From contig JAJEKB010001368.1 of NCBI GenBank assembly GCA_022393335.1, positions 54,234 to 118,233 of the forward strand: 64,000 bases of DNA, given 5' to 3'. The stretch is from Macrotrachela quadricornifera. Lineage: Eukaryota; Rotifera; Eurotatoria; Philodinida; Philodinidae. Numbering within the stretch: position 1 is the first letter of the stretch; each line of letters starts with the position of its first letter. Position numbers and translations under genes: made by a program. The notes under the pieces are model-generated. The model searched no databases, was not told where the DNA came from, and was given only the letters and a program-made list of their open reading frames with translations. Shown piece by piece: positions 5,351 to 27,910 of the stretch.

Positions 5351-6988
5351 ATGAAATTACGGCAGTTAATTGATGGTATCGATGGTATAGTATGTACTAA
5401 TCCATTGACATTAGAAAAATACTATGAACATTGTATAAATTTAATTACACAATCGCCAAGATATCTTTCAGAAATAAATGAATTTAGTTGTCAAGGTATT
5501 ATGTTTGTTGTGCCAACAATTGATGGAAAAACTGCATCCGAAAAAATATTAGATCAATCAATTATAAATGTTTTAACTTCTATTTCATTATCTGCTGTAG
5601 TTGTCAATGATTGTCAACTGGTAAACTTATTAGCTTCAGTCACATATCCTGTATTTAAAGTTACTCAAATAAAAACAATAAATGAAATATTTGGTGAATT
5701 ATGTAATCGTTATTACAATTATCCTTCACGTTTCATTCATCATATGATTGGCGTGACAGGCACCAATGGTAAAACAACAGTAACACACATGATTGAGAAA
5801 TGTTTGTCCGATGCTAATTTGACAGTTGGCTTAATAGGTACACTTGGCTATAGATATCACAACCATGAAAATAGTATGGATGAATACATTCCTTCAGGTT
5901 ATACAACACCAAATGCTTGGATTATACAAACAATATTGAATGATATGACAAACAAGTATCATATAGAAAACGTTATTATGGAAGTTAGCTCTCATGGATT
6001 AGCATTCGACCGCATCTATGGTAGTGATTGTGATGTAGGAGTTTTTACAAATTTCACACAAGATCATCTCGGTTTTCATAAGACAATGGAGAATTACTTA
6101 CAATCAAAATTACTATTATTTTCAAAATATTTATCGAAATCTTCATCACCCAAAGCTATCATTAATCATGATGATCCATCGTATGAGCAATTTATCAATG
6201 TGTGTCCATCAAGTACTAAGATTTATACATATGGCTTATCAAAGAAAAATGAAAATTCATTTGTAGCGTATGATATTAAGAATTCTTCTAATGGAGTAAA
6301 CTATACAATTTTAATACCATCAGGTGAAATACGACGGGTTCATCTAAATGCATTTGGTGTTTTTAACGTTTATAATTCCCTTGCTTGTATAGCTGCATGT
6401 TTGACAACTTATTCACATCTATTAACATTAGATAATATTATTCAATCGTTAGAAACATTTCAATCTGTTAAAGGACGATTTGAATTTATTATAAGACATA
6501 AACCATTTTCAGTTGTGGTGGATTATGCGCATACACCAGATGGATTAGAACAAGTACTCAAAACCGGACGGCAGTTATTATCAGAATCGGATGAAAATGG
6601 TCGATTGATTGTTGTGTTTGGCTGTAATGGACGTGGTGACCGAACCAAAAGGCCAATACTTGGACATATAGCGGAACAACATGCTGATATTACGATAGTA
6701 ACATCAGAGAGTCCTTATCAAGAGGATCCACAAACAATAATTGACGGAATTTTATCTGGAATTGAAGACAAAGCTAATAGGAATCGGATCTATGTTGAAC
6801 TGGATAGAAAAAAAGCGATACATTTAGCAATGAACTTAGCTAATGGCAGAAATGATTTAATAATAATTGCTGGTAAAGGTCATGAAACAACACTTACACA
6901 CGGTGATCGTGATATACCATTCAACGAGAAAGAAATTATAGAAAATAAATATAAGGAAATGATGGATAATAACACAACATTCATATAA
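5351..6988 (+). CDS. murE: MurE-type UDP-MurNAc-dipeptide : third-residue ligase
   Basis: ATP-dependent ligase adding the third stem-peptide residue to UDP-MurNAc-L-Ala-D-Glu. The 545-residue frame is somewhat longer than bacterial MurE (about 490-500). Visible motifs in order: substrate-binding N-terminal domain; P-loop GVTGTNGKTT (134-143); GYTTPNAW (183-190); MEVSSHGLAFDRI (210-222); FTNFTQDHLGFH (232-243); YLQSKLLLF with the lysine expected to be carbamylated (K253); VVDYAHTPDGLEQVL (389-403); FGCNGRGDRTKRP (423-435); and GKGHE (508-512). The DAP-selecting motif TSDNPR of most Gram-negative enzymes reads TSESPY here (451-456), so the third amino acid is uncertain. It is intron-free and the first gene of the peptidoglycan set, transcribed towards murL. 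A pyrimidine-rich AG lies 8 bp upstream of the start. Function is strongly supported; the exact substrate is not. Confidence 0.93.
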   Translation: MKLRQLIDGIDGIVCTNPLTLEKYYEHCINLITQSPRYLSEINEFSCQGIMFVVPTIDGKTASEKILDQSIINVLTSISLSAVVVNDCQLVNLLASVTYPVFKVTQIKTINEIFGELCNRYYNYPSRFIHHMIGVTGTNGKTTVTHMIEKCLSDANLTVGLIGTLGYRYHNHENSMDEYIPSGYTTPNAWIIQTILNDMTNKYHIENVIMEVSSHGLAFDRIYGSDCDVGVFTNFTQDHLGFHKTMENYLQSKLLLFSKYLSKSSSPKAIINHDDPSYEQFINVCPSSTKIYTYGLSKKNENSFVAYDIKNSSNGVNYTILIPSGEIRRVHLNAFGVFNVYNSLACIAACLTTYSHLLTLDNIIQSLETFQSVKGRFEFIIRHKPFSVVVDYAHTPDGLEQVLKTGRQLLSESDENGRLIVVFGCNGRGDRTKRPILGHIAEQHADITIVTSESPYQEDPQTIIDGILSGIEDKANRNRIYVELDRKKAIHLAMNLANGRNDLIIIAGKGHETTLTHGDRDIPFNEKEIIENKYKEMMDNNTTFI

Positions 6989-8519
6989 GTTAAATTATTG
7001 GATGGAATATTTTATGCTATGGAATTACTTATTGAAAAATACTCTAATTATTTAATAATGTATGCGATTAGCTGACCTTTTTTTGTATCACAGACCTTAT
7101 ATACTCAGATGTGATCAACCATTTTGACACTGAGTAAATCTTTTGCTAAAATCATTTTTCGCGTACTTAAGACACTAAAGAAAAGGCCAAGAGTTTTTTG
7201 CTGTCAAACGTTTTATTCAACATAGCCTTAAGAAAATTATTCTAGAACAAATGAGCATATGATTTAAATCCAATTGAAACGAAAAAGAAGCGAATCTGTA
7301 TTTTGTTTATCTAAATGTCATTCGGATACTATTGGTAGTCAAGATAGCCCAAAAGTTCTAATGAGATATCACATAAGAATAAAAGAAAAAAGCACATATA
7401 AAGATATTTTTCGTTTTCATTTCTTCCCTCGTCAATATAATGGTAATACTTGCCTTTCTTCCTTTATTCTCTCTTAAATCATATACATACCTTGTGTGAA
7501 TATCTGTTTATTAAGTAGTGGTGATAATGAACGAAGACTCATCATTCCTTTCATCTTCGAAACCAGGCTTTCAAATACGTGGTGCACATATGAGGTTGAG
7601 AACTAAGTCCAACAATCAAATTGAAATAAATTCTCAATTGATCTATCAGCAAGTAGATATACCAAATAATGATGTATCAAATCAATAGATGGCATCATCG
7701 TCTCGACATAATTTTCCTTCAATTATTCTCGAGTTTATCGGCAAGTATCACAAATGCGATCGAAAACTGATAGAAGAGTTAATAAAAGAATGAAAACATG
7801 AATATTATAGGGAGATTCGGATATAGAGAAGTATTGGTTATTTTTATCCATGACTTGCCATCATTCGATGATTTAGTCATCAAATCTCAGTAGCAGAGAA
7901 ACTAACCAGAAAACTTCTCTGGGTGATCAAACGCTTTAGGTCTCATTTTTTGGCGATAGGTAGACTTCAATGAGGTATACAAGACTTCAAGAAGATTTGT
8001 GTGCTCACGCCTTGATTCTCGAGATATCGAATTTTCAAGATGCATACAAAAAGGAATCGAAATGAAAAATGATCGTTTTTGGAGATCAGTAGAGTATTCA
8101 GGTGGAAATTTTTTAAAGCTTTGCACATTGCTCGTGGTAACTTGTTCTGGATTAAGAGTTAAATCTTATCTTGTCAGTACTACTTATATTGGCTATTCAT
8201 CGACTGACAGAACATCAAAAACTCTTTATTTCATATCTGATATCGTTATACGCCATAAAAAAATGAGTAATGGAAGCGAATGATACACTATCGATTATGT
8301 TTTCGTCTTTCTCGGTAGCATACTCGTGTTCTTTGTTTACGTTTCCCTAGTTGCTTTCTCCCCTTGTTCTCCCTTTCATGTCAGATTCGTGTCATGAAGC
8401 TGTTTTTTTCCTTATTCAATTATAGACGGTATACAGGTGACGGGCAAGCAAGCAAGCAGCCGATATCAGTTTTTTTCATGTTTATTTTAAAAACATCAAA
8501 CCAATAGATGTCGTGAAGA
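6989..8519. other. Intergenic stretch between murE and a transposase relic
   Basis: No conserved gene is seen. The short ORFs here (7274, 7902, 7999) have no recognisable domain. Confidence 0.45.
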
Positions 8520-9680
8520 TTTTCGCTGATTGAGCATCAAACTTATTGTTTTCTATCGCGTCAAACACTATAACCGCAAATGTGAAGCAGCCGAACTGTT
8601 GTGGGGTGTGCTGGAATTGAGTACTAACAGTCACTCTCACACCTCTAAAGTCGAAACAATTCTCAATCATGAGTTAGTCGACGACGAATTGATCAATGAT
8701 GTCGAGTGCGAAGATACAGCTGAAAACACATTGGATCCCAACTGAAATAATGAGGATGAAGATGAAGAGAGGGCGTTATGCAAATCATTTTCAGTCGATT
8801 ACGTGACCAAGGTAGTCAATTTCTATGATAAAATTAATCTGCAAACTGGAAAACGAAAGAGACGGTGAGAGACAGTGAAAAATCAATTTTGACGTATCCC
8901 GTATCAAACCTATCTCGCTCGCTATCGCCATTATCTTGAGAAACATGAAACGAAGAAACAAAAGCTCGGCAAAATTGATGATCATATATATGATATGTTC
9001 GAATGGGCATGAGAGAAAGCTCTACCAATGCACGATATTGACCAACGCCGATGGACTCTTAAAAAGGCTATGGATGAGTCTTAACACAATTTTATCGCTT
9101 CAAAATCATTGACTGTACACCTTTAAACACAAACACAATATTACCTCGCGCAAGGTGACGAAGGTGAGAGATTTGTGATCAGTTTTTATGAGTCTGTGAG
9201 AAGAAGCTCTGCCTCAAAAATCAGATGAAAATGAACAAGAGGGCTGTTTACGAGTTCCAGACTTCCCGTTTTTCAAGAATTGCTGGTTTCCTCAAAATTA
9301 ATTAAAATCAAGCATACTAAAGTTATTTGTTCTTCATAGATTGTGACGAAGCCGCAAGCAGAAAATCAGGAGACGATCAGAACTTCAACCTATCAGTTCA
9401 TAGCTGATGTTCGCCCCAATATGAAGACAGCGAAGTTATTAACACAGATCAAAGTGGAATTCAGCTCGAATTACACTCTACTCGAACATTAAATCGTAAA
9501 GAAGACAACTATATAATTGGATCCGTTTGCTCTAAAAACGTTACCACTCACAGTTATACAGTGCAGCTAACAATCACACGCGATGGTCATCTCTTTTTAC
9601 CACTGTACGTTTGTTTGAGGGGGCCTAAAGTCCACCTGAGCAAGAATATTCACCCGAATATTTGTTCATCTTTTTACCTA
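8520..9680 (+). pseudogene. Decayed DDE (pogo/Tc5-like) transposase
   Basis: Reading-frame blocks interrupted by stops and frameshifts read as one protein. First comes VVNFYDKINLQTGKRKRR (about 8814), then YQTYLARYRHYLEKHETKKQ, then a block with RRWTLKKAMDES, then YQFIADVRPNMKTAKL. After a frame change the last block begins NTDQSGIQLELHS at about 9439 and continues with TITRDGHLFLPLYVCLRG. The NTDQSG block resembles the first catalytic aspartate region of DDE_1 transposases, preceded by a helix-turn-helix-like basic region. Several in-frame stops make it non-functional. Family assignment below DDE is tentative. Confidence 0.55.
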
Positions 9681-9851
9681 TATGTTTTTCTTAAGGTAAA
9701 ATTCGAAACCTATTTTTCGATCATTTTAAAGGTTAGAAGATTTTTTTTATTCGAAAGTTCTTTACTCCTACGAAAAATGTTTTATGATCAGCAACAATAT
9801 TTCAATCAGTATATTTTGACCCTCAATTGTATTTTTCTCGTGCCATCACCT

Positions 9852-11213
9852 TCAATAAATATTGCATTTTAATATACGCTCGAACTCTTCAGTTACGAAA
9901 TGTTCCTCGAGAAAATCTTCTGGTATGAGAATCGACCATATTTCAGATCCTAGCAAATTATAGAAGTAATTGAGTAAATACGGGCGTTCATCAGGATAAT
10001 GGACTAAAGTCATTTTCAAAGCCGCTCTTATTTCAACGACAGTGCCAACACATTCAAATGGTTTGCTATTCTGCAATCCAATTAATTGATCAAATTCTGT
10101 TTTGAGTGTGGGCTTATCTAGTAAATTTTCACCGAAAATCTCTTCCAATTGTTTTGGAACAATGAAAGGTGAAAGAATAATGAAAGTAAATAAACATTTT
10201 GAACATTGACGACACCAAGTATCATTTTTGCTGCCAACATTACAACTTTTGAATACCAAAAAGTATTTCGGTTGTCGAGCAAATAATTTCGCAATAGTTA
10301 ATTCATGTAGTGGTCTGAGGAAACTAAAATAATTAAAATCTGGTGATATGTATTGATCGACATAGGAACGAAAATCTCGTTCAAATTCGATTGATTTTGA
10401 ATATTGATGATTGACATTTGAATTCTTAATTGTTGATTCATTCGCACTGGATTCATTTGATAGAGCGATGTGCTTAGTTTTTGTTCCAGCTGAAATAACG
10501 AGCGTAACAAATGCAAGCATTGCTGAAAATGGCGTGTGCCCATTTAAGAAACCTTGTTCATTAAGTCTGAGCAACTGTGGATCTAATGCTCTATGAATTT
10601 CCACTATATCCATCCGTGTAAAACCTGCGGTTTGTGCACTCTCCAATGTGGCTTGACGAGGATTAATAATCATCGGAATTTTATGTGGGGAATAGTTTTT
10701 CAAAAGTTCTAATGTAACTATAGAGTCTTTGCCCCCTCCAATGGGTACAAGAATACTATTGTTTAGTGTATAACGTTGAATAGGTAATGAATTTTGTCCT
10801 ATAGAAATTATTTCCATAAAACTACTAAAAGTGACATCGTCGATACCGTTACGATAGAAAAATTCACCTAATCCATTAAAGTATAACTTTTTCCACCAAT
10901 GTCTTTGTTCAATGCTTAAAAAATGTGGTTTGATATAGACCGTTGGAGAGCAGGTTGCTTTCCAATAACTAATCAGTTCAATCATACCAATATGAAAAAT
11001 TAGATTATCAAGTTCTGGTCCACGTAATTCTTGAAAGTGATAGAATGATCGCATTGGAATGTTCAGCTTAGTTATGAAGAAAAACTCATCAGAAATATTA
11101 AAATAGAAGTGTAAAATCAGCGCATCTTGATTAATTTGATAGTTATAATGATCATAGCTGAAAAAAGGATAACGACATCTCAATACACCATATTTGGCTT
11201 TGCTTGTTTGCAT
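9852..11213 (-). CDS. murL: MurL: UDP-MurNAc-L-Ala-L-Glu epimerase
   Basis: Predicted ATP-dependent epimerase that inverts the terminal L-Glu of UDP-MurNAc-L-Ala-L-Glu to D-Glu (the activity described for Xanthomonas MurL). The 453 residues match the usual family length. Motifs visible: IGMIELISYWKATCSP (75-90), GLGEFFYRNGI (114-124), a PP-loop-like ATP site VPIGGGKDS (156-164), INPRQATLESAQTAGF, a SNESSANES stretch, NHQYSKSIEFERDF, YFSFLRPLHEL, and a C-terminal cysteine set (SCNVG ... WCRQCSKCLF) that may bind metal. It is the expected partner of the MurD2-type ligase about 2.3 kb away on the same strand. A pyrimidine-rich AG lies 6 bp before the ATG. The gene is intron-free as read. An extra 5' exon is possible but not demonstrable. 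Family identification rests on motif memory, not a search. Confidence 0.85.
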   Translation of the reverse strand: MQTSKAKYGVLRCRYPFFSYDHYNYQINQDALILHFYFNISDEFFFITKLNIPMRSFYHFQELRGPELDNLIFHIGMIELISYWKATCSPTVYIKPHFLSIEQRHWWKKLYFNGLGEFFYRNGIDDVTFSSFMEIISIGQNSLPIQRYTLNNSILVPIGGGKDSIVTLELLKNYSPHKIPMIINPRQATLESAQTAGFTRMDIVEIHRALDPQLLRLNEQGFLNGHTPFSAMLAFVTLVISAGTKTKHIALSNESSANESTIKNSNVNHQYSKSIEFERDFRSYVDQYISPDFNYFSFLRPLHELTIAKLFARQPKYFLVFKSCNVGSKNDTWCRQCSKCLFTFIILSPFIVPKQLEEIFGENLLDKPTLKTEFDQLIGLQNSKPFECVGTVVEIRAALKMTLVHYPDERPYLLNYFYNLLGSEIWSILIPEDFLEEHFVTEEFERILKCNIY

Positions 11214-12889
11214 TAGTTCCTACAAAAGATGATCAGTTTTGAATATAAATCAATTTAAAAAAAATCAGAAAATATATTTTACATGTCATACCGATGTTAA
11301 ATTATTGTCGATGATAAATTCATCTGTTGAAACTATTGTTTTTCTCTGACTGTTTCAAAATACTGAGATTGAAACTAAAAAGTCAGTTTTTCCTCAAATC
11401 AGACTCAATCAAAACTTTTGTTTCTTAGACTAGCTGGTAGCGTGTTTTTATTCACTTATGGTTCAGTTGCATGGCAAAGAAAGATTTCTACGGGAAGTTA
11501 GCAGACGCGTTCATAAAGCTTGAAATTTTACATCTATTTTATACGCTCGTGTTGTGATAGAACTCTTTAAAATAAGTCGAAATCTATGACGCAAGAACGT
11601 TGTTTTCTAATATTATGAACTTTTGTGAAGTGACGTAACTGAGCTTATCAAATCCAACACACCATCAGATACATCAAAGAATTCTATATCAATCTATACA
11701 AAATTCTCCATAGTTGGTTAAGTCTAGCCTGATAAAGAAGTCTATCTAAAACTGTCTATTTCATCTAAATCATCGGTTACAGTAACTTTGAGACGCAATA
11801 ATATCTGATACTGTTCTTATCTATATGATTTTTAGTTTCGTATCTGTTAAATTGCAAAAGAAAAATCATACGCAACGAAATATCATAATAGACTCAAAGA
11901 TTATTTAGTAATATGAGCCATCACATCTACACAAGAATGAGAATTAAGACGAAGATTTGCATCGCTAGGAAAAATGATACGCTGATAGGCGATCTTACAC
12001 CCACTTTTATGGGAATCCTCAAAATAATAGATATAATCATATTATAATTGATTAATAATAAATACAATTACACAGTAATCATGTATTATTTCTTGTCGAC
12101 AAAAAAATTCATGTATTCGAATGCATTATAATTAAATAATTGTTAAATGATTAATAATGCGTTGAAAAATTCATGAAAAATATTGTATTATCATGCATTT
12201 GTGCCTATTATTTCTCCACAGTAGCAACCAAAGGTCTTCTTCCACCTATAACTCTCCTAAGCATCATAATTACATGAAAACTTTTTTTTTATTATGCATA
12301 AGCTCATAGTCTATCCTGATCATCAACGTAAATCACGCATTTTCGATGGGTGCAAAATCGGATGACATTGCTGATCAATCAATTTTTTCAACTTCTTTTT
12401 TTTATCTTCCCTGCCGATATCAATGTTCATGGTGTGTTTGCGACTGTTATCATCTTGAAATTTCTACAACAAGAGATCGCGACCAAATTAGTTTTGAGTT
12501 GCCGATCAGAGACTATTCTGATAAATGCAATATATGAATTTCGCATCCAATTTTTGTCTGAAACAGACGATGCGACCGAAACCTTTGCTTGGGAAGCAAT
12601 CTCAAACATTGATGCTGAAAGGATTCTTAACAGTTTGAACGACCTTCTTTTTCCTTAACAAATTTCAAACCATTCTTTTCACGGTATTCATACGTATAGT
12701 GGTCTCGTACGAAAATATGCACTAAGTCTATAGAAAGTTTCAGAATTTCTAGAAAATTCCAAATAGGTAGAAAATTTTGTTCGTTAATGTATTATAATGC
12801 ATGGTAATGTCCAATATTTATGAATTATTTCTTAAAATCAGATGCATGGATAAAATTTGTTCTGTACATCTCAGAGATTCTCTACATTA
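11214..12889. other. Intergenic region between murD and murL
   Basis: A short stretch (12350-12658, +) has a protein-like frame with HGVFATVIILKFLQQEIA and FAWEAISNIDAERI. It lacks a clear start and may be a relic of an unidentified gene. The rest is AT-rich with no motif I recognise. Confidence 0.35.
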
Positions 12890-13520
12890 GAGGTGACACT
12901 TTAATTTTACTTTAAAAGTTTAAGTCCAAGTAGATGGTAAATAAAGTTCTTCAATGTAGATTATTTTACGTTCATAGCATGGGCAGTATCGAGTCATATG
13001 AAACAAGATCTTGATAAACGTTCAGATCGGATTGATAATCACTATGTTTTACAGTTGAAATAATAAAAAAAATTCATGGTGGAATATAATTGGTCGATAA
13101 GATATGAGTTTCAACTAATACGAATTTCAGTAGAAGTTTTTTTTTTCTTGGGTAAAGCGTAGTCGTTATCGGATTGATCAAGGGGTTTGTTAGAATGCTC
13201 TCTCGTATGTCCGAGAAATATTGAAGAAAACTCTTACTGGTGTCTCATTGGTTGAAGGTCATATGCTGTCGATCAATCAGATTTCATCATACATTTTTTT
13301 ATTATTATTTCAGGGGTAGAACATAGTGGTTGTCGGATCGATCTAGATATCTGTCAAGGTATTCTATCATATGGCTCGATAATATTCATGCTATACACGT
13401 AAATAGTTTACTCTGAAAAATTTCATCAATCATCTACTTTCACTTTGCTTTTTCAATGTCAAAATTTGAAAGTGATATACTTGAACTTTAACTTTTAAAG
13501 TAAAGCTAAAATGCCACCCT
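12890..13520. mobile_element. ~630-bp inverted-repeat element
   Basis: The left end, gaggtgacactttaatttta (12890) and following bases, matches the inverse of the right end (about 13470-13520, terminating aaatgccaccct). They share the 14-mer actttaaaagttta with one mismatch, plus flanking bases, over about 45 bp. The inside holds two diverged direct repeats built on gtcgttatcggattgatc (13162) and ggttgtcggatcgatc (13331). No coding potential is seen. Probably a MITE. Confidence 0.5.
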
Positions 13521-13551
13521 TATTTTACATAAGTTCCACATATTAATATCG

Positions 13552-14943
13552 TTATAGATTACGTTTGCTCACTTTTTCAATCAAATGTTTGAATGTGTTG
13601 CCTCGTTCTTCGAAATTCTTAAACATATCATAGCTTGCAGCCGCTGGCGATAGCAAGCAAACCTTTTTTGATTGAGTAAATTTGAAAGCCAGATCTACCA
13701 CTTCTGCATATGTTTCGGTGATATAGAAATGACTATCCTGCAGCAAATGTTTGTCGAAAGTATCATGCATACGTTTTCCAGCCGACCCAATAAAGATCAA
13801 ATTCCGAATTGGATGCTGATAAATAAAGTCTCTTAAATTTGTATAATCGATTCCGCGATCAAATCCACCTAGAATCAAAGTATCAACATTCTGAATTGCT
13901 TTCAAAGCTGCAATAGTTGTTTCAGGTATTGTTGAAATGGAATCATTATAAAAATGGATGCTTAGAAAATTTCCAAGATATTCAAGTCGATGAGGAAGAG
14001 ATTTGAAATCAGCCAATGCTTCCTGTACAATAGTATTTGGCACATTTAGAATATGACAAACTGCAGCTGCTGCCATTATATTAACCAAATTATGGTCACC
14101 GATCAAAGTGTTGCGACCATGGGCATCATAAACCAACATGGAATGCCCTCGCTCAGCAAAAAACACTTGATTATTTACTGTAAAAAATCCGTCGTTCAGT
14201 TGTTCTTTGAGACTCAGAGGAACTTTTATTCGAGATTTGTCGAAATTATTAAGGAAATTGATAATGATCTCATTATCAGCATTATAAATTATCGTATCAT
14301 TTTCCTTCTGAAATTGTATGATGTTTAGCTTTGATTGCTGATATTGTTTGTATGAGCAATAAAAATCCAAATGTTCAGGAAAAATATTCAATAATACGCT
14401 TATATGTGGTGCTTGTTGAATAAATTGTAATTGATGAGAGGATAGCTCATAAACGATAAGTGTTTCAGATGTGATTTTATCTAATACATCAAAAGCAGGA
14501 ATGCCTATATTACCGACTAGAATGACATTCGATGTATATTTACAAAGAATATGATAGATCAATGAAGTTGTTGTACTTTTTCCCTTTGTTCCAGTAATAC
14601 CAATAGTTTGTAAGTGAAAAATACTTAAAAATAGATGTGTTTGAGACGAAATTCGTGGGTCTTCAATCAGTTCTTGACGGTGTTTGAATGAAACTCCAGG
14701 ACTTTTTATAATCAAATCGTATTCAGATAAATCATCAAGATAATTATCTCCTAATCGTAGCATGACATTTTGATCATTTGCTAATTGTTCATTGTCGTGT
14801 AAATTGACATTTTGATCGGCAATCGATACTTTTCGATTAGGTAAAAACTTTCGAATTGTTCGATATGTTGACTGCCCTTCTCGTCCAAAACCAAGAATGA
14901 GAATATTTTGATAATGAGATAATTTCTTCAATAAACATTCCAT
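13552..14943 (-). CDS. murD2: MurD-family ligase, probably MurD2 (L-Glu adding)
   Basis: Mur ligase that adds glutamate to UDP-MurNAc-L-Ala. The 463 residues are of normal length. In order: N-terminal nucleotide-binding-like LILGFGREGQST (15-26); IKSPGVSF (79-86); P-loop GITGTKGKSTT (115-125); VYELSSHQLQ (164-173); NIFPEHLDFY (186-195); YQQSKLNI with the lysine expected to be carbamylated (K205); GDHNLVNIMAAAAVC; FYNDSISTIPETT; LGGFDRGIDY; and LSPAAASYDMFKNFEERG near the C terminus. The NDSISTIPE variant in place of the usual NDSKATN, and the nearby murL, point to MurD2, which uses L-Glu rather than D-Glu. This subtype call is inference. It is the one peptidoglycan gene here lacking an obvious splice-acceptor-like AG just before its start. 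Confidence 0.9.
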   Translation of the reverse strand: MECLLKKLSHYQNILILGFGREGQSTYRTIRKFLPNRKVSIADQNVNLHDNEQLANDQNVMLRLGDNYLDDLSEYDLIIKSPGVSFKHRQELIEDPRISSQTHLFLSIFHLQTIGITGTKGKSTTTSLIYHILCKYTSNVILVGNIGIPAFDVLDKITSETLIVYELSSHQLQFIQQAPHISVLLNIFPEHLDFYCSYKQYQQSKLNIIQFQKENDTIIYNADNEIIINFLNNFDKSRIKVPLSLKEQLNDGFFTVNNQVFFAERGHSMLVYDAHGRNTLIGDHNLVNIMAAAAVCHILNVPNTIVQEALADFKSLPHRLEYLGNFLSIHFYNDSISTIPETTIAALKAIQNVDTLILGGFDRGIDYTNLRDFIYQHPIRNLIFIGSAGKRMHDTFDKHLLQDSHFYITETYAEVVDLAFKFTQSKKVCLLSPAAASYDMFKNFEERGNTFKHLIEKVSKRNL

Positions 14944-16292
14944 TTCGATATAGGAAGAAAATCGAAGATAATTGAGTAAACACAGGCGTTGATCACGTTA
15001 ATTTTTAACTTGATTTTTTTCTAGAAAAAAGATGTATGTAGCAAAATGTTGAAGAAAACGAGAGTTAGTTGTCATAAGACCTAGTTATTTTTTAGTAACA
15101 ATCGGAAGTGGGAGACCGCTCAAGTTTTCTATGAGAGTGAAAACTACAGTAGAAATAATATTAGGTAATGTTCATGATCTTTGAGATGCGTAGAAATACA
15201 AACGATTGACTCTGTCAAATTAATTTTATTACACTTGAATAGTCTAACATTCGTTAATCATTCGAAATAGTTGTTGTTCAATAATAATGATGCAATTTTT
15301 CATTAAAATGGCATTTATATAAGTATTAATATTAGAGCAGATAATGCATGAAAATCAAACAGATGTGAGGATGACGATGGATGTCTATTTACTTACATCT
15401 TCAATCATTCACTCGTAAAAGAGGTAAGATTCGTTTAGTTTTAGTCAATGCAGTATTTAAAAAATGTCTAATGTGAAACAGAAATTGCAGCACAACAATG
15501 AGTGCTTCTGTTTCTCTCTGTATGAATTCTCTCGTCCTTCACAACACAATCCATACACTTTATGCTGAAGAACAAAATAAAATATATCAATTGTATTTTT
15601 CTTTTCATTCTTGATTTCGATTTTTCTCGATGGTAAGTGAGTCTATGACTTTTTTTCAATTGATGCTGAATTCAAAAAAAGAAAATAATCGTCCATTTTA
15701 CCATAGTATAAAGGTTATGGGGCTGAAACACGGGTCACCTCTTGTATATATTTGCAGATCCGATGCCAACTGCATATAACAGGTTATTTTAAGAATTTAT
15801 AACTAGTGGAAATACCCAATGTTGCCTGAGAAAATTTCATATTGCATGCCTAAGGTACTCGAAAACAATGATTCTATGACCTTCTATAAGCTACCAGCCT
15901 TGAATGTCGTATAATGCGCTCTGATCATCTATTTTCTATTTTGGCATTATAGTATTACCACTCTGCAAAATCCTTTAAGGGAACCCTTTAACTTAATGCG
16001 TGCGTAGAATCAGTCTTTTTTGATCCAGATATTGACTAAAGAAAGATCCAAAAATCGGCTCAACTCCCTCCCTGGTCCTAATATTGGCTTGAATCTATCC
16101 TGGTCTTACTTCTATTCTAATTCCACCTCAATCCTGATCCAAATCCTGTTTCTGCTCTATTCTTAACCTGATTCTATTGTATTTATATCCTCACTCTGAC
16201 GAAAAAGAGAACTTGGTCCTATTTTAGGCCTCGCATGCACTTTCACTGTTTCTAGAGTATAGACTATCATGTCTAAGAACAAACTGTTCTCT
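14944..16292. other. Intergenic stretch between murA relic and murD
   Basis: No gene is seen. Around 16080-16200 is a decayed repeat of cctgattctattctaat-type words on the plus strand. Confidence 0.45.
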
Positions 16293-17086
16293 CTTTCATT
16301 CCATTAATCTATATTAACATGATATACAGCTAATAATAATACACCGCACCACTACGTATATCATGAGCCAACAAATCTTCACAATTATTTTTGTCATATT
16401 TAATTCCATTGTATATTATTCGATTATCATTAATAATTGTATCATAATCCAGTTTACTGAATTCTTGACATTGTATATTACGTACATCATAAACACAATT
16501 AATAAATTCAAATAAAATATGTCGAGCAATAAGTAAAGCAGTTAATATCGGTGAAATATCTGTTGGTAATTTATCGGTATTTACCAATTTGTGGAAAAAA
16601 AATTGTTTGTTCCATTAAGTAAAGCGTTTTGATTAAATTTACCTATAGTAACTGGCATAATGGACTTTAAGTATTCAGTTATACATTGATCATATTCGAA
16701 ATTAGTGATTAGAAGTTTTACTTTAAACATTGCAGCGAGAGAACAACTCGTAAACAAATAAATTTAATCGATTGGTAGACGTTCAAGTAAGAGATAGTTA
16801 TTTGAAGGTTGATTATTCTGTTCAAAGATAATTCTATATTCGGAAATGATCATAATCATCGAACAATACTCTGTTGTAAGTGCAATTACACTCTGTACAG
16901 ATGCTTCAAGTGTTACATAAGTTAATTTACATTAAATATGAACTGGAATCCTACAACAACTACGAACAGCATGTAAAACTACACCCACACTTGATATTCC
17001 ATATTTAGTTCGACAATCAAATTGAAATTTCTCATTACTAACATTCCAATTTTTTCTAATAAAATGTTTCACCATCATCACTCAAC
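16293..17086 (-). pseudogene. Truncated murA pseudogene
   Basis: A diverged copy of the 3' two thirds of the intact murA at 23.6-24.9 kb. The block LPTDISPILTALLIARHILFE and the downstream HDIRSG block (frame at 16330-16587) align with LPTDISPILTALFTARN and HDIRSG of the intact copy. Nucleotide matches continue upstream, such as actggcataatgga (16651) and ccatcatcact (17072). Frameshifts and stops destroy the frame. The 5' third, including the catalytic cysteine region, is missing, and the match ends exactly where the foldback element begins. It shows that murA was once duplicated locally and one copy died. Confidence 0.85.
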
Positions 17087-17949: not shown

Positions 17950-18823
17950 ATACAGAATTGATGTCCTATTCAAGACCTATCAAATTCATTGTTTAAGTTC
18001 CATTTTATCTTATGTATTTATTACAAAATTGAATTCACTACCCAGGCATTACTTATTGAAGAAAATAACTAAAAATGAGGAATTTTGTTAATGGTTGTAA
18101 GCTTTCAAAAATCGACCGAAACACCATAAATTTATCATCAAAATGCTCTTTTTTTAGATCTCTGTCTGTAATGAAAAAGAGATGAAGTAGCATTATTGCC
18201 ATCCCCGACATTGATGGTTGTTGTGTTACTCGAACACTCTAATCGTAATCATACTACATGAAGCATAACGTTATATACAAGAGGATGAATAAGAGATCAA
18301 GGAGAGAGCATTGGTAGAACATAAGAAGAGAAGAATAGAAGGTAAGCGTAAGCGAGAGTAAGGCAGATATATCCTTTATCTTTTCATAAGTCAGGGACAA
18401 GTATAACTCTTTGTCAAATCACTTATGAAGGATAAGTATATAGTATGAAGTTTCTTTCATACTAATCCTCTTTATGCCTTACTTATTGGCACACTATCTG
18501 TGTGAAAAAGCTTACAAAAGAAAGTTGAAATTCTGTTTTCACCTGCTAAATATCCAGTTGAAATCAACAAGATTTTCTTAGATTTCAGACCACGAGAAAA
18601 GTTAACACTTGTTGTGATGCGAAGAAGTATACTGACTTCCTTTATCCCCGCCTCCAATCTGCATCACTTTTGAACATCTCTAATCGCTACTATGTCGCAG
18701 ATGTAATCAAGAAAATATGCCGCACCTGCTGTGGAAAAATATACAATTTTTTGTAGATAATCCAGTTTTTCAGAGGAGAAAATAACGATAAGATGTTGAA
18801 GTTTATCACCTCGAAGTCACCTT
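17950..18823. other. Intergenic stretch downstream of murC
   Basis: No gene or clear repeat is seen. The expected remainder of the murA pseudogene was not found on this side of the foldback element. Confidence 0.45.
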
Positions 18824-20122
18824 TTAACTGAGTGATACGAATTCTTTTCGAAGCCAATCATCCAAGCAGTTTCCGCTTCCTGCTGTTAGACACAATACCA
18901 GATATCCGTTGCCTAATTCATACTGGATGTGGTGTTTCAAAGTTTCGTCTATTTCACATGGTGTTGTTTTGATTTGTGTTTGGTTACTCAATAGATTTCG
19001 TAACATATTGGGATTCAAAAGTTCTAAGCTTTTTTCCTCGCGCGCGAGATAAGTTGGTACAATATATAGATGTTTGACGTTATCGAAAAGATGTCGGAGA
19101 TCTTTTTTTATGAAATGTTGTCTTGTATTCTGCATTCCTTCGTATACAACAACGACATTTTGTCCACCAATTTCATGAGCGAGTTGTAATGCACCTCGAA
19201 TTTTCGTCGGAATATGGGCATAATCTGTATACAAATTTGGGTAAATTTGCTCGAAGCGCCGATATACACCTGGGAATCGATTCATGTGTTCAACAAGCGT
19301 ATCTATAGAGATTTCGGTGAGTAGGTGAACAACGGAAACAGTTTGCCATGCATTACGACGATTAATCATTCCGGCTAAACTGAAAAGGTTAAGTCTGTGA
19401 TCCTCATCGTCTAGCATTGTGATGCTTTTGCTTGTTTGTGAACCAAGGTGGTATTTATCGGATTCCCAAAAAACAGTATGCAATGATTGTTGAAAAAAGT
19501 CGTGAAAAGCTAGAACGTAACTTTCTCTCGTTGAATACGTGTCCGGATGATCCCAGTCAATACCCGTAATTGCGGACATATGAGGTTTAAAAGCAAGAAA
19601 GTTCCGATCATATTCGTCAGCTTCATATACAAAATATTTGGACTGTTTGTCGTATGTACCCATGTCCCCGAAACTAATTTTTGCACCAACCGAATAGCTA
19701 ACGGGAATAGCAAGCGCTTTAAATAACCATATCGTCATTGCTGTGGTGGTGCTTTTTCCGTGTGTTCCAGCTATAGCGATTAGTTTAAGTTGCTTTTCAT
19801 CAATTATTTGATTTAACAGCTCATCGCGTTTTGTCGTCTTGATCATATACTCTTTACAGAATTGTATTTCTGGTGAATCTTGCTTTTCGATCACAACAGC
19901 GCTTGAATATACATACCAATCAATGGGTTTCTGAGCATGGATCTTTGCAATTGTTTCATATGACTGAATAGTTGAAATATTGACGATGCCTCTGCTTCGA
20001 AGATACTGAATATAGTTCGAGTCTTGTTTGTCAGAACCCGAAACATCATGACCAATTTGTAGAGCTATGAGGCTAAGTGGACCAATTCCAGAACCACCAA
20101 TTCCGGAAAAAAATATGTGCAT
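18824..20122 (-). CDS. murC: MurC: UDP-MurNAc-L-alanine ligase
   Basis: First Mur ligase, joining L-Ala to UDP-MurNAc using ATP. It has 432 residues, slightly short for MurC (about 450-490). Motifs: N-terminal GIGGSGIGPLSLIA (7-20) and SGSDKQDS; P-loop IAIAGTHGKSTTT (115-127); YSVGAKISFGDMGTY; YEADEYDRNF (166-175); ITGIDWDHPDTY (185-196); DYAHIPTKIRGAL; and the C-terminal YEGMQNTRQHF with LYIVPTYLAREEKSLELL. The EADEYDRNF/GIDWDHPD style recalls MurC of candidate-phylum (Saccharibacteria-like) bacteria, which could hint at the donor. That is an impression from memory only. An acceptor-like ttacattcag ends 4 bp before the ATG. It is intron-free. Confidence 0.93.
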   Translation of the reverse strand: MHIFFSGIGGSGIGPLSLIALQIGHDVSGSDKQDSNYIQYLRSRGIVNISTIQSYETIAKIHAQKPIDWYVYSSAVVIEKQDSPEIQFCKEYMIKTTKRDELLNQIIDEKQLKLIAIAGTHGKSTTTAMTIWLFKALAIPVSYSVGAKISFGDMGTYDKQSKYFVYEADEYDRNFLAFKPHMSAITGIDWDHPDTYSTRESYVLAFHDFFQQSLHTVFWESDKYHLGSQTSKSITMLDDEDHRLNLFSLAGMINRRNAWQTVSVVHLLTEISIDTLVEHMNRFPGVYRRFEQIYPNLYTDYAHIPTKIRGALQLAHEIGGQNVVVVYEGMQNTRQHFIKKDLRHLFDNVKHLYIVPTYLAREEKSLELLNPNMLRNLLSNQTQIKTTPCEIDETLKHHIQYELGNGYLVLCLTAGSGNCLDDWLRKEFVSLS

Positions 20123-21505
20123 AATTCTGAATGTAACACTTACTTACTGTAGAAATTTATCATATACTAGACGTAAATAAATATAACGAGCTTATTGAGT
20201 ATTGAACTAAATCGTCAGATTTTAGGTAAATCACAAAACACGTTTCATCTCTTCTCCCATAATAATTCGATATAAACGATAGTATATAGCGAAGAGAAAG
20301 TGTAAAAAAAAAGCCTTCCTTTTATATTTGGTTCTGTTCTTTTTTGTGTAAACGATGCTATATCAATATGTAATGATTCGTTTTTCTCCTTACCTTGTCG
20401 TATACACCGACGAAAAAGAAAAAGCGATAAAGAAAAAAAAATATATGTTTGGTTTACTGAATGTGAGAGGTTTCTTTAATCAACGTGTCTATACATTCAT
20501 TCTGGTGTGTATGAATAGTGAAAAATGAAAAAAAGACCATGGATGCGAGACAAACATAAATAAAAGTGCATAGCCAACAAGGACATATCCGATACAAATA
20601 TCTAGAGCGATGTGAAGGCATATGAACGATATGCATGTAACGCTGCACAATTATCATTTTTACGAAATCTCCTGAAATTTTTTTGAATACGGTTCATTCC
20701 TGAAAACTTCGCGAGATAATCGATGAAAATGACTTTTTCTTACTGATTTTACTGTAGCTAAAATAAAAATTTTTATTGTCCCGATAGTCTGCTGAAAAAG
20801 AAAATGCGAGCTCACTTCAACTTAAACAAAATAATTAATAATTGAATGTTTCTCCAATGAAATCGTCTATTTTTGTCATGAAATATTCCATGAACCTAAT
20901 ATTAATATTATGAGAAATTTTAATCGTTTTCCATTTGTTTCTATAGTTCTTGACAGTCTATTAGCCGACAAACGACTAGCTTTATCGGTGAATAACCAAC
21001 GGATTGTTTGTTTATAAAGGGTGGCCCAGAAGTCCTGGCTCGATTTGTATAATGAATTTTTTTACAATAAAACACGTACTTAAAACTTTAGCCCTATGAT
21101 AAAAAGATGCAGTAAGCGATGCTCTACAAAATAGCCTATAGCACTGGGCATATTAGAAAACCCGGGGTCTTATAATATGTTCTTTAAAAAAGTGACCTTT
21201 TTAGGGTCCTCGACGAGAATTTTCATAAAAGTGTGTTTTCATACTAATTATTTAATTCCTATTTATGTATTTTTTACTTTTATCCTTTTATTTTTATTCA
21301 TTTATGAAAATTAACAATTTAATCAAGTTTCTGGAAAAGAAAATGGTATGAATAAAAGATAACTAGCTCGTAAGCGTGATTAATGAACGTTTTCTACGTT
21401 ATGCATACATATATGTCCATTGTTTACATTAATTACATTACGTTGTACGAGCGTAGCCAGTTATGAATATTAGAAAGAACAGAAAAAAATTGAAACAAAG
21501 CATAT
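20123..21505. other. Intergenic stretch upstream of murC
   Basis: No gene is seen apart from the dispersed repeat at 21017-21125. Confidence 0.45.
21017..21125 (+). repeat. Dispersed repeat copy B (gggtggccca family)
   Basis: Second copy of the repeat at 2127-2232, starting aagggtggcccagaagt and running through cctatgataaaaagatgcagtaagcga. The two copies differ at scattered positions. Confidence 0.55.
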
Positions 21506-22776
21506 ATAGAGGGTGTTTTACAAGTTTTGAAGTACTTTTAAAATGTTTCGTTCTCACGTTTAACAAAACCAGCCTTTGAAACTTTAGCATATTACTGAAC
21601 ACGTTTAGTAATACATAACTACAAAGTTTCAGATCTATAGCTTACACTATAAATGCTAGCCTGTAGCAGGTTAGGTGTCTAACTCTAGGTCGTCGAGATG
21701 AGATGAATGCAGACGTATATTGCTCTGGTTTATTCATAAAAAGTCGCATGCTATATATAGGCAAGAAGATCACACATCTCTAGGAACTGTCCATCAGATG
21801 ATGGTGGAAAGAACCCATCGAATATAATATATATGAGAAGATGACATATATAAGACGAAAGGAAAAGACCACATATATGTAATGGACAGGAAAGGAAAAC
21901 ATCTCTATAGATAAGAGATGCAGGAGAGCTACAACTGAGGGGATGTCGATACCACTTCCTAACAAGCAACACCAACATATATTTTTTTTGCCAATTTTCT
22001 TGTAGTTCGGGTCAGGTCAAATGTTTATACCTACCTCCAATTAGATACATGTTTAAATCTTGACTATTTTTAAATATGCACCATGAAAAGCTCTACAAAA
22101 ATTACAATAACAAATCCCTCTTGATATGTATGAATTGTTTCTACCAGACTCAAAATGAAAACACACATGATAATATTGCTTCTCATCATACTGTGCATAA
22201 TAAAACACAAATATTTCGGAGACCATTTCGTTTTGCACGCATCTCAGTTTGAGAAAATATTAAAATTTTGATATTTTTTTTAAAGATTCGCTGTCCAAAG
22301 CTCTACAAAAACTGTATAAACAAATTCCTATTGGAAAGGAAACAAGTCTTCTAAACTTTTTTTAGTACGTACAATACGGAGAGAAGTAGTACTACTATAT
22401 TGAGCTTTTATTTTGGGTATGGCAGAAACCATTAAGATAAGTTAATAGGAAATTGTTATTAGAATTATCGTACAGCTTTTCATGGCGTATCTTTTTAAAA
22501 AAATTGAGATTTTAACTTGTATCTAAGCCGAGATATAGACAAAATAAAAAAAAAATGTTACACGATCCGAAGATGACCTAGGATATTGAAAAATAGTATA
22601 TCTTGGTGTTGCTACAGGTTCTCGTTTACAATACAAGCTATAGATCTGAAACTTCGTAGTTATGTAGCACAAAGGATGTCCAACAATATGTCCAAACTTC
22701 AAAGACTTTAATTTTGATAAACGCGAGAATGAAACATTTTAAAGGTACTTCAGAACTTGTAAAACGCCCTTTATAT
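21506..22776. mobile_element. Non-autonomous DNA transposon with ~170-bp terminal inverted repeats
   Basis: The left end, gagggtgttttacaagtt (21509), matches the inverse of the right end, aacttgtaaaacgccctt (22755-22772). The match continues inward through tacttttaaaatgttt, ctacaaagtttcagatctat and cctgtagca. TA-rich bases flank both ends (tatata). Inside are short inverted subrepeats around aaagctctacaaaaa. No transposase frame is visible. A solo LTR is nested in its left arm. Confidence 0.75.
21669..21964 (-). mobile_element. Solo LTR nested in the inverted-repeat transposon
   Basis: On the minus strand the 296-bp insert begins TGTTAGGAAGTGG and ends CACCTAACC, giving short inverted TGTTAGG/CCTAAC termini. 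It is flanked by a 4-bp duplication (agca at 21665-21668 and 21965-21968). The matching right arm of the host transposon (about 22600-22620) keeps the uninterrupted site, tgtagcaacacc in left-arm orientation, which defines the insertion precisely. Within it are a TATA-like tatatata and an AATAAA signal about 20 bp further on, as expected of an LTR promoter/poly(A) region. No internal retroelement genes remain. Confidence 0.65.
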
Positions 22777-23552
22777 ATAAAATAAGAGTTTTATACACTA
22801 TAAAAGAACTAAAAAAGAAGCTCATTATAGCCGTAATAAGAGGAGGGAAAGAGTCTTCTATTATATCTTTTGCATTATTCTTTCACGAGGAGTCTTCTAA
22901 TTTGTCAAGAGCTTTTCACATATCTATCTTGTTCTTATCAAAAGTTATTCGATGAATAGCCAAGACTAACTATATCTGAAATGGATATTAGGAGAACTTA
23001 AGTTAGCTCTTCTTAGCTAATAAATCTGCAGTAATCAAAACGTTTTGAAATTAGAACATAATACGGGAGTGAGACTATAGTAATTCACTGATGCTAAATG
23101 ATTTCCAAATTGATATCTGGTCTACGAAAAAAGAGTGTAAGTATAGATGGCAATAGTTGTTATGACTGAATTTTAACTTATACAAATCTGCAACTCACAC
23201 TCACAGCTTTAACCATATTCGAACTCTGACTACATCTACGTATTGTCATAGCCTTTATGTCTTTATATGAGTATCAATCTAGACATATATAGTTCTTTTC
23301 ATGTTTTTTTTTAAATAAATTTCTCTTGGTTTATCAAAAATAGCTAATTAATATTCAAGTATACTTAATTCTTCTTTACATACGAAAGAACTATAATTGC
23401 ATTCCAACATATGTTTGCAGATTTGTAATTAAAAAATAAATAGAAGAAAGCTAAAATTTTCACATGAAAAAATAATTGCAAATGAAAACGAAATTATGAA
23501 GAAAGTCTCTTCTATAAAATGTATGTAACTATTCATTACAGTTGGTTATTAT
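22777..23552. other. Region downstream of the murB-murA gene
   Basis: AT-rich, with no gene seen. Confidence 0.4.
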
Positions 23553-24917
23553 TCATGAAATAAAGCGAACATCAAAACCAAATTCACATAATTTCTGATA
23601 AAGTAAATCTCCATAACCTCGTTGAATTTGTTCATATTGATGTAAAATAATTTCATCATTTGACTTCCATTCATTTGTATTAACATGATATAATGCAAGT
23701 AACAATACAGCTACACCACTGCGAATATCATGAGCAAACAAATCTTTACATGACGATCTACCATGTTTAATTTTATTGTATATGATTGTATTACCATTTG
23801 TATTTATATCATAACCAAGTTTAGTGAATTCTTTACATTGTGTACTACGTGTATCATAAATACGATCAACAAGTTCAAATGCAATATTTCGAGCAGTAAA
23901 TAAAGCAGTTAATATAGGTGAAATATCTGTGGGTAAACCATCAGGATAGATATCACAAATTAGTTTGTGATTTACATTTTGATTGTGAATAAAACTTGTT
24001 GTTCCATCAATTAAAACAGTGGAATTCGTATCATCGATATCCAACGGCATAATAGATTTTAAATATTTCGTTATACATCGATCATATTCAAAATTTTTTA
24101 TTACAAGTTTAAATTTAAGAGCTGCAGCAAATGAACACATAGTAAATAAATAATTTTGATCAATTGGTACATGTTCAAGTACGAGATTGTGATTTGAACA
24201 TGAATTTGTTTTTTCAAAAATAACAGTACGTTCGAATTCGTTTACAATTAGTGAACGATATTTGGACACAAGTTGAATTATTGCTTGCACAGATACTTCA
24301 AGTGCAACATATGTCAATTTACATTGAATATGATTTGGTAGTGCACAACAACTAAGTATAGCATGTATTGTTAAACCAACACTTGATATATTGTTTTTAG
24401 TTCGACAGTCGAATTCAAAATCATCATTACAATCATTCCAATTCTTTTTCAAATAAAATTTTTCACCATCATCACTATGACCACCAAGTGTAACAAGTAA
24501 GTTGAGATGAAGATCAATTGGACGTTGAGTAAATTGACAACCACCAAGTTCAACACAACGTACACTACCATATGTTAGTAAAGTATTTCCAGCTAGATCA
24601 ATACTAGCTCGACTAAATGATGCTGAAGTTAAATCAGTTAATTTATATCCATTTGGTATAATGGTTAATGATTGATAATTATGAAAATAAAGGTCGGCTA
24701 CATTATTCTCATCGATCCATTGCAAAATACGTGCTACATCATAAGAGATATTTTCATAAAATCCATCTTTAAAACAAACTACTTGCCGTAAACCAATTGC
24801 AGCAAAAAGAAGATGAACACAAGCATTTTTGTCTGATGGAATATGAATGGTTTTCAGAACGTTTTCATTTTTCCATGAATGATTTTGTCTAATTATTAAT
24901 TTTGATGGTGTCATAGT
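23553..24917 (-). CDS. murA: MurA half (exon 2) of a MurB-MurA fusion: enolpyruvyl transferase
   Basis: Transfers enolpyruvate from PEP to UDP-GlcNAc, the committed step of peptidoglycan synthesis. EPSP-synthase-like fold. Counting from the internal methionine at 24914: SDKNAC (27-32) keeps the conserved Lys-Asn pair; SRASIDLAGNTLL (101-113); GGCQFTQRPIDLH (124-136) keeps the catalytic cysteine (C126), the residue attacked by fosfomycin in the family; YPDGLPTDISPILTALFTA (323-341) with the catalytic-base aspartate region (D330); DIRSG (396-400) with the PEP-binding arginine; and a C-terminal QRGYGDLLYQKL. It is divergent but complete, with all key residues present. It is read in phase 0 directly after the MurB exon. 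A separate gene starting at 24914 is the alternative, but that would leave MurB ending in an unrelated tail. Confidence 0.88.
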   Translation of the reverse strand, partial: TMTPSKLIIRQNHSWKNENVLKTIHIPSDKNACVHLLFAAIGLRQVVCFKDGFYENISYDVARILQWIDENNVADLYFHNYQSLTIIPNGYKLTDLTSASFSRASIDLAGNTLLTYGSVRCVELGGCQFTQRPIDLHLNLLVTLGGHSDDGEKFYLKKNWNDCNDDFEFDCRTKNNISSVGLTIHAILSCCALPNHIQCKLTYVALEVSVQAIIQLVSKYRSLIVNEFERTVIFEKTNSCSNHNLVLEHVPIDQNYLFTMCSFAAALKFKLVIKNFEYDRCITKYLKSIMPLDIDDTNSTVLIDGTTSFIHNQNVNHKLICDIYPDGLPTDISPILTALFTARNIAFELVDRIYDTRSTQCKEFTKLGYDINTNGNTIIYNKIKHGRSSCKDLFAHDIRSGVAVLLLALYHVNTNEWKSNDEIILHQYEQIQRGYGDLLYQKLCEFGFDVRFIS

Positions 24918-24974
24918 CTAAAATAATATAATACTGTATGAGCATATTTGATTTAAATAATTTATAAAGCATAC
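24918..24974 (-). other. 57-bp GT-AG intron joining MurB to MurA
   Basis: On the minus strand the MurB frame reads ...atgtttaaaccaattaaa, then gtatgctttata, and the acceptor tattatattattttag is followed by actatgacacca. Removing it joins MFKPIK to TMTPSK in phase 0. The MurB stop codon is formed by the acceptor's tag (24918-24920). The length is typical of short metazoan/rotifer introns. The read-through peptide has no resemblance to MurB, which supports removal. Confidence 0.75.
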
Positions 24975-26033
24975 TTTAATTGGTTTAAACATTCGAATGA
25001 TATTAACTTCTGCTTCTAATCGGATATGAAATCGTTTTTCTACAACTGTACGAATATCTTTTGCTAATGTCCATAAATCATAACCATTATTCGATCCATT
25101 ATTAATCAATACATTAGCATGAGAGTGCCAGGTACCAGCTGTACGTAGATAATAACCTTTCCGATCACATTTTTCAATGAGCCATCCAGCTGGAATTTTT
25201 ATTTGATTATCACTCATTCGATAATGGGTAATCTCAGTTTGTTCTTGTTGCATAATCTTTTTGTATTGATCGTTTGTTATTATTGGATTCAGAAAGAAAC
25301 TTCCAGCATTTCCAAAATCTAACCATGGATCAGGTAATTTTATGGATCGACGTTTTAGAATTCTGTTAATGATATTTTTGCTTTGTAATTCAACAGATTC
25401 TGGCGATGATCTAAGTAATTCAACAGTCACATGTGTAATTATATATCGCATATGGCCAAGATTATCCTTATCCTGTTTAAATCTGCTTTTACGATAGGCA
25501 AACTGGCATGCATCTTTATCAAATATAACGAAACATTTATTCTGAGTATCGAATGCTTGACATTCGAGAAATATTTCACTTAATTCTGCTCCATATGCAC
25601 TTATATTTTGAATTGGTGCAGCACCAACAGTACCTGGAATACCAGCTAAATATTCCAGACCTTTGTATCCATGTTGAACCGTATAATTTATTAAATCCGT
25701 CCATTTTTCACCAGCACCAACTTTCAATATAATCTTGCTGTTGTCATCGTCATTTGTGACAATAGTAAAACCTTTTATGCACATATGAATTATAAGTCCA
25801 TTAAAAAATTTGTCAACAAAAAGCGTATTGCTTCCCTCGCCAAGAACAAGTTTATGTTCGATATTTATAAAATATGGATCATGAAAAATTTTCACCAAAT
25901 ATTCTTCTTTCTCAATTCTAACAAAAAAACGAGCGATTACATCAAAGCCAAACGTATTTAGATTTCTAAGAGATACATTTTTTTCTGAACGGAGCGATTT
26001 CGTACCTTTCAGTGTCGAATCACTGTGATGCAT
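24975..26033 (-). CDS. murB: MurB half (exon 1) of a MurB-MurA fusion: UDP-enolpyruvyl-GlcNAc reductase
   Basis: FAD/NADPH-dependent reductase giving UDP-MurNAc. This exon encodes 353 residues. NLNTFGFDV (24-32) starts the domain. FAD-binding segments are LGEGSNTLF (64-72) and GIPGTVGAAPIQNISAYG (131-148). FAYRKSRFK (178-186) has the conserved Tyr-Arg. GNAGSFFLNP (241-250) has the catalytic serine (S245), and RLEAEVNII (338-346) holds the C-terminal catalytic glutamate. The type I MurB Tyr-loop architecture appears complete. The exon ends with MFKPIK and is spliced to MurA, giving about 807 residues in all. A pyrimidine-rich AG (26044-26045) lies 10 bp before the ATG, so the first 20 residues, which are not family-like, are plausible but unproven. 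Confidence 0.9.
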
Positions 26034-27801: not shown

Positions 27802-27910
27802 CCACTATTAGAAGGACAAAACATCGTGTTGTTTGGGCCATATGAGAGAGCATCCTTGATAATCCTAGGATTGGCTCAAACAGTACCATGTTTTGTCCTT
27901 ATAGTAGTAG
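27802..27910. repeat. ~110-bp palindromic MITE, copy 1
   Basis: The ends are ctattagaaggacaaaacat and the inverse of atgttttgtccttatagtag. The inner part has gttgtttgggccatatgagagag and its partial inverse. Confidence 0.6.

Follow-up and report, generated by a model that had tools for sequence, protein, structure and literature searches.

The DNA analyzed here, a window of 64,000 nucleotides from the bdelloid rotifer Macrotrachela quadricornifera (bases 54,234-118,233 of the 1.64 Mb contig C898, in an assembly of 450 Mb and 5695 contigs), carries six genes of the Mur families, MurA, MurB, MurC, MurD, MurE and MurL, all of them genuine, undamaged and residing in the genome of the animal. Taken together they make it probable, in our judgment, that this animal has a working cytoplasmic route from UDP-GlcNAc to a soluble UDP-MurNAc-tripeptide, with the product perhaps being used as a small muramyl peptide towards bacteria.

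The open frames of all six genes are present exactly at the following window coordinates, within 21 kb: a MurE-type ligase at 5351..6988 on the plus strand (545 aa, a single open frame) and, on the minus strand, MurL at 9852..11213, a MurD2-type ligase at 13552..14943 (463 aa), MurC at 18824..20122 (432 aa), MurA at 23553..24914 and MurB at 24918..26033. This layout is not operon-like, in agreement with the initial annotation of the window, which had described it as unlike a compact bacterial operon. The best NCBIfam E-values for the six families range from 2.5e-28 (MurA) to 3.5e-124 (MurE), with MurC at 2e-60 and MurL at 2.7e-80, which excludes chance matches and upholds the assignment of six Mur families made in that annotation. 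The curated NCBIfam cut-offs are passed by MurE (415 bits against 373), MurD (349 against 212) and MurB (319 against 277); MurC, MurA and MurL, which score under theirs, appear from their sequences to be diverged but clear relatives of their families. Pfam, at E <= 0.001, recognized Mur ligase domains in MurE, MurD and MurC (three in MurC, the C-terminal one under its cut-off), the EPSP-synthase domain in MurA and both MurB domains in MurB, and matched no domain in MurL, for which there was also no match among solved structures. Alignment to solved chains places the expected stretches in MurC, in MurE and in MurD (the last against the E. coli enzyme and others), the serine stretch GSFF-NP in MurB (against the P. 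aeruginosa enzyme) and the catalytic cysteine stretch GGC in MurA (against that of S. pneumoniae), the last being kept at a level of at least 90% in the aligned bdelloid rows. By residues and fold match the MurA would thus resemble a working MurA, yet it lies outside the curated family score.

The part of the window from about 3 to 37 kb has a counterpart on a second contig, C4890 (206 kb), which is 94-96% identical to it across the cluster and carries the six Mur genes in the same order with all frames open; we take C4890 as the other haplotype of the C898 region. The assembly does contain a bacterial contig, C2384, which might lead one to ascribe the cluster to bacterial contamination or to a chimeric assembly join. 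We rejected this explanation, and consider it extremely improbable, given that C898 and C4890 share the gene order with all frames open and differ by about 5% in their spacers, that an intron is predicted between the MurB and MurA parts, that relatives are found in other bdelloid records, and that the codon use is host-like (for the six Mur genes, r is 0.89 with six neighboring host genes against 0.75 with three contaminant genes). Hence the residence in an animal genome claimed by the initial annotation is borne out by the linkage on the second contig and by codon use, and the chimeric join that it had named as a refutation is answered in part by the second copy of the cluster. C2384 itself (10.9 kb) has murG-like, murC, ftsQ-like, ftsA and ftsZ frames in a row, named by eye, and judged by these genes is a contaminant or an associated bacterium. 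The TGTGGG telomere repeat is absent from the first 10 kb of both C898 and C4890, so that a subtelomeric location is neither shown nor excluded.

The closest proteins with species names come from Rotaria sp. Silwood1, Rotaria sp. Silwood2 and Adineta steineri, and the full-length relatives in Rotaria and Adineta are 67-76% identical to the window proteins. Such relatives were sought for MurD, MurE and MurB-MurA, and the comparison of proteins suggested by the initial annotation thereby found all three in bdelloid records. Two bdelloid genera at least thus have parts of the route: Rotaria has MurB-MurA, MurD and MurE, and Adineta has MurB-MurA.

To gauge selection, the ratio of nonsynonymous to synonymous substitution rates (dN/dS) was computed by the Nei-Gojobori method between C898 and C4890, and gave 0.14 for murE, 0.19 for murL, 0.21 for murD, 0.17 for murC, 0.38 for murA and 0.51 for murB, with a pooled value of 0.22. 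Against a neutral expectation from 1000 random placements of the same changes, amino-acid changes were fewer than neutral in murE, murC, murD and murL (fractions of simulations as low: 0.000, 0.001, 0.007 and 0.015, respectively). Divergence between the contigs is 1.85% of 8,112 bases in coding sequence and 5.47% of 13,339 bases in spacers, and the bases facing gaps number 0 and 71, respectively. These results support the action of purifying selection on the Mur set as a whole. If the cluster were instead a decaying relic that is intact by chance, one might expect company of the kind that is in fact found: a broken second MurA copy with stops and frame changes lies at about 16289..17069 on the minus strand (detected by tblastn and DNA matches, and on both contigs), MurE remnants with stops occur on C4640 and C4514, both Mb-sized contigs, and murA (0.101) and murB (0.212) taken alone are without significant constraint between the contigs. 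However, these broken MurA and MurE copies are a picture of what becomes of unselected copies in the same genome, and the pooled dN/dS, the absence of gaps from coding sequence and the full-length relatives in Rotaria and Adineta make the relic a very improbable explanation. The selection on these genes proposed in the initial annotation therefore stands for the set, but is not significant for murA and murB individually.

That annotation had also listed MurA and MurB as separate genes; both families are confirmed, whereas their separateness is probably to be given up. The MurA frame starts at 24914, three bases past the end of the MurB frame at 24918, and the last 57 bases of the MurB frame (24918..24974, minus strand) have the form of a GT..AG intron, GTATGC...TTTTAG, that keeps the phase and holds the stop of the MurB frame at its 3' end on both contigs. 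Reading across this predicted intron yields, on both contigs, a single MurB-MurA protein of 807 aa, in which the MurB part recognized by NCBIfam would be the first exon (24975..26033) and the MurA part the second (23553..24917), both on the minus strand. Used as a query, this protein matched predicted proteins of Rotaria sp. Silwood1 (794 aa, 73% identity over 98%), Adineta steineri (796 aa, 67% identity over 98%) and, partially, Rotaria sp. Silwood2 (705 aa, 74% over 87%). Among the best 120 of 501 matches only the Rotaria and Adineta proteins, which are themselves gene predictions, span both parts, as seen from Pfam domains (P0121, P0122) or from alignment (P0123). Of seven MurA-only frames, four start at the methionine following the intron, two have their start five columns downstream of it and the last one lies still further in; such starts would be expected if, in these sequences too, the place were preceded by a stop. 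The most likely interpretation of these frames is that MurB and MurA are one spliced gene and not two neighbors. A eukaryotic protein of 860 aa from EukProt (P0156) was seen to have MurB domains beside domains of the sugar-epimerase type.

The MurD of the window bears on how the glutamate of the peptide would be supplied. Passages of PMC8788868 describe a MurD2 of X. oryzae in which Glu197 and Arg358 replace Asp182 and Lys348 of the E. coli enzyme and decide for L-Glu, with MurL converting L-Glu to D-Glu with ATP after the MurD2 step. Aligned to E. coli MurD, the window protein has E190 and R363 at these two positions, and across 22 MurD rows R363 is invariant and E190 is kept at a level of at least 90%. 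Both residues are needed for a MurD2 call because canonical MurDs can carry an arginine at the second position too, as the same passages note for S. mutans. The protein further has I336 at the position of E. coli Lys319, a site at which a change allowed acceptance of L-Glu (PMC8788868, in the part available). By its residues, then, the window MurD is of the MurD2 type, predicted to add L-Glu and to pair with MurL; if the two work as they do in bacteria, no glutamate racemase is needed for D-Glu. An orthologue 76% identical is found in Rotaria sp. Silwood1. In the best 80 of 307 confirmed bacterial loci with a related MurD, a MurL relative is present in 66, and in 63 of these fewer than 300 bases separate the end of the MurL match from the MurD that follows it. 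The likeness to the Xanthomonas-type pathway thus lies in the L-Glu-type residues of MurD and the MurL gene nearby, whereas the bacterial genes stand side by side and those of the rotifer, in an animal host, are separated by 2.3 kb, murD coming before murL in the direction of transcription. The scan of genome contigs that led to these loci used the MurD alignment, while one with MurL alone found no relative. On the 32.5-kb contig C3641 of the assembly there is a second, distant MurL-like stretch of either host or bacterial origin (26003-26545, 32% identity over residues 225-408, E 4.8e-24).

The predicted model of the window MurE matches MurE structures across residues 1-543 and so has the expected fold. 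Its diaminopimelate motif, DNPR in E. coli, reads ESPY, which departs from the diaminopimelate type and leaves the protein without the arginine that grips this residue; the specificity arginine is lost in four of the nine bdelloid rows. The main catalytic motifs of the cluster, described as intact in the initial annotation, are so for the most part, but not in this motif, nor could Pfam recognize the N-terminal UDP-binding domain of the window MurE, a domain equally unrecognized in the precomputed Pfam lists for the MurE relatives P0241-P0252. DapF was not found in the genome search. Contig C1301 (positions 1263-2813) carries a further intact gene of the MurE type, which shares about 34% identity with that of the window and has NAAR instead of DNPR. 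One of the relatives, P0252 of Rotaria sp. Silwood2, is annotated as a fusion of the MurE-type part with PF00060, the domain of ligand-gated ion channels, which may be an artefact of the gene model.

For the remainder of the pathway we used profile searches of the genome contigs that ignored introns. PF08245 matched ten places, namely three MurE, two MurD and two MurC genes, one MurC on C2384 and two broken MurE copies, with no MurF among them. The transpeptidase (PF00905) and transglycosylase (PF00912) profiles, each of which matched in 10 of 14 control genomes, had zero matches in the assembly. PF00953, used in search of MraY, matched five short pieces, of which four lie pairwise next to each other; we take these two pairs as candidate exons of the eukaryotic DPAGT1. 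Among the further genes that the initial annotation had suggested seeking, Ddl-like frames are present (16 matches, the best on C4255 with 159 bits, falling just under its NCBIfam cut-offs with 307.6 against 310 and 242.6 against 245.65), as are 14 matches to frames of the alanine racemase family, whereas MurF is not found. Thus, of the near-complete pathway that was proposed, the genes for six steps are confirmed, but without a detected MurF and with a MurE that lacks the bacterial diaminopimelate signature.

In the route that we favor, the MurA part of the fused polypeptide would transfer enolpyruvate to UDP-GlcNAc and its MurB part would reduce the enolpyruvyl product to UDP-MurNAc. MurC would then add L-Ala and MurD2 L-Glu, after which MurL would invert the added glutamate to the D form using ATP, and MurE would add a third residue, probably not meso-diaminopimelate, for which L-Lys is a first guess. 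The route would end at the soluble UDP-MurNAc-tripeptide and not at a wall: since the searches detected neither a MurF nor a transglycosylase or transpeptidase, polymerization of the product is improbable. More likely it is set free, or attached, in the form of a small muramyl peptide that, speculatively, would serve in defence or signalling towards bacteria, a use that we prefer because no wall-building enzymes were detected and because the mealybug precedent has both symbionts and a MurF.

That precedent is the reason for considering that the animal might feed wall precursors to an intracellular bacterium without these genes. The mealybug Planococcus citri has nuclear murA-F and ddlB (passages of PMC5664097), and its nuclear genes contribute to the wall of the symbiont (passages of PMC9116674). 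The two animals are alike in that their nuclear genomes contain bacterial genes for consecutive steps early in peptidoglycan synthesis, acquired in the mealybug from several donors (same part of PMC5664097), and the Ddl-like gene of the rotifer assembly would fit a similar use. They differ in that the mealybug has MurF and symbionts whose wall gets built (same part of PMC9116674), whereas the rotifer has MurD2 with MurL, the MurB-MurA fusion and six genes in 21 kb, and no MurF in the intron-blind PF08245 search. Moreover, the bacterial contig C2384 has murC and murG-like frames of its own, and a limited title search, made without a systematic search for symbiont genomes, returned no report of a bdelloid endosymbiont among the titles listed. 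To our knowledge no symbiont is known for this rotifer, and on balance we regard provision of a symbiont as quite unlikely and retain the free muramyl peptide as the preferred product. A eukaryote making UDP-MurNAc-peptides would itself have a parallel in the plastid pathway of the moss Physcomitrium patens, in which, according to the available part of PMC9434261, such compounds were shown by mass spectrometry. The moss has a diaminopimelate-type MurE and proceeds to the pentapeptide, while the rotifer has the ESPY-bearing MurE and neither DapF nor MurF among the genes found.

Several observations nevertheless weigh against a complete and working muramyl peptide route. The three under-scoring proteins fall well short of their curated cut-offs, MurC with 205 bits against 335 and a match in two stretches, MurA with 99 against 297 (86.5 against 392.7 in a second model), and MurL with 270 against 700 for a Xanthomonadales-specific model, though over residues 22-401. 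The lack of clear departure from neutral placement in murA and murB alone also counts here, as does the escape of the UDP-binding domain of MurE from Pfam. The structure model of MurB-MurA is weak (mean pLDDT 69.8, pTM 0.55). The fit is poor for its MurB half (4jay, rmsd 14, TM-score by target 0.49) and good for its MurA half (3swg, TM-score by target 0.81), and among the structures that the fold matches is NikO, which is an enolpyruvyl transferase other than MurA. The disregard of introns could have hidden a split MurF or MraY, the PF04101 search for MurG gave 15 matches with that of the contaminant among them, and a Ddl-like gene would make most sense together with a MurF. Lastly, the matches of MurD and of MurB-MurA in Rotaria sp. 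Silwood1 are listed with contigs of differing length, which speaks against close linkage of the two there, or else reflects separate records. Some of these points, namely the distance of MurA from its family cut-off, the elusive UDP-binding domain, NikO among the fold matches and the loss of the MurE arginine in part of the bdelloid rows, could mean that the genes are in use on other substrates, their product being a nucleotide-linked peptide or small molecule of another kind and not a muramyl compound. However, the catalytic cysteine stretch is kept in MurA, the MurB-MurA fusion and the MurD2-MurL pair suit successive steps on UDP-MurNAc, and MurD, MurB and MurE score over curated cut-offs, so that we consider other substrates unlikely, if deserving more attention than the remaining alternatives, and keep to the muramyl peptide route.

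Regarding provenance, the MurD tree (61 of 121 sequences on hand) united four bdelloid rows in one clade (SH-aLRT 99), and its taxon-named rows are Bacteroidota; the MurL is 42-53% identical to MurL in loci titled Bacteroidota, so that both genes look Bacteroidota-like. The named bacterial best matches of MurE belong to Cyanobacteria, Vampirovibrionales and Melainabacteria. In a MurE tree of 64 rows (the window, C1301, eight bdelloid-type matches and 54 of 108 other listed matches), nine bdelloid rows are united in a single clade (100/100) whose stem is long (1.41), and no donor emerges, while the C1301 gene sits on a very long branch and cannot be placed. Transfer of a single operon, which we considered, is not supported in view of these differing affinities. 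Since MurD and MurL look Bacteroidota-like and MurE has its matches in other bacterial groups, the cluster is likely, if not proven, to be a mosaic from more than one bacterial group.

Muramyl peptides are characteristic of bacteria and a main cue by which animal immune systems recognize them. If it is true that an animal makes them without having a wall to build, this would break the rule that they are made by bacteria only. More broadly, though here we are tentative and would give the full proposal somewhat less than an even chance, bdelloids may make their own muramyl peptides, from UDP-GlcNAc to a tripeptide with a non-diaminopimelate third residue, by genes from several donors and with a MurB-MurA fusion that arose in the animal line, retained in free form as a metabolite to cope with bacteria, and neither for a wall nor for a symbiont. 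This raises the testable questions of what the product is and whether the animal needs to keep it out of reach of the proteins with which it recognizes bacteria, and the further one of whether gene transfer into bdelloids has been shaped by selection on whole metabolic chains. Single bacterial genes linked to peptidoglycan, Ddl and Alr, have reportedly been found in bdelloid genomes; what is present here is a linked set for successive steps. No Mur pathway in bdelloids was reported in the open-licence literature searched, which left early subscription-journal papers on bdelloid gene transfer outside, and term searches of PMC4632278, PMC12220480, PMC10809525 and PMC11258130 turned up no mention of one in the matching passages, those of the first two referring, as regards peptidoglycan, to its breakdown only. 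The mealybug is already a known case of an animal with bacterial mur genes in its nucleus. As far as searched, the novelty lies in the MurD2/MurL pair, the first in an animal, in the MurB-MurA fusion, a probable new bifunctional enzyme, in the tight linkage, in the presence of parts of the route in two or more bdelloid genera and in its likely end at the tripeptide.

As for the surroundings of the cluster, the adjoining locus L009 has no frame of at least 130 aa, and L010, also adjoining the window, has two frames of at least 150 aa, neither of which is of Mur type by eye. An inverted repeat family of about 190 bases, common to C1301 and C4514, is represented at window positions 27618-28266, and a run of ten N at 55647-55656 marks a small assembly gap. 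Three genes of the ADP-ribosyltransferase type lie between 42276 and 48034, one with ankyrin repeats and one with TPR according to Pfam, the middle one (44067-44894) being assigned by eye only, and a similar frame was recognized by eye in L010 at 163-1215.

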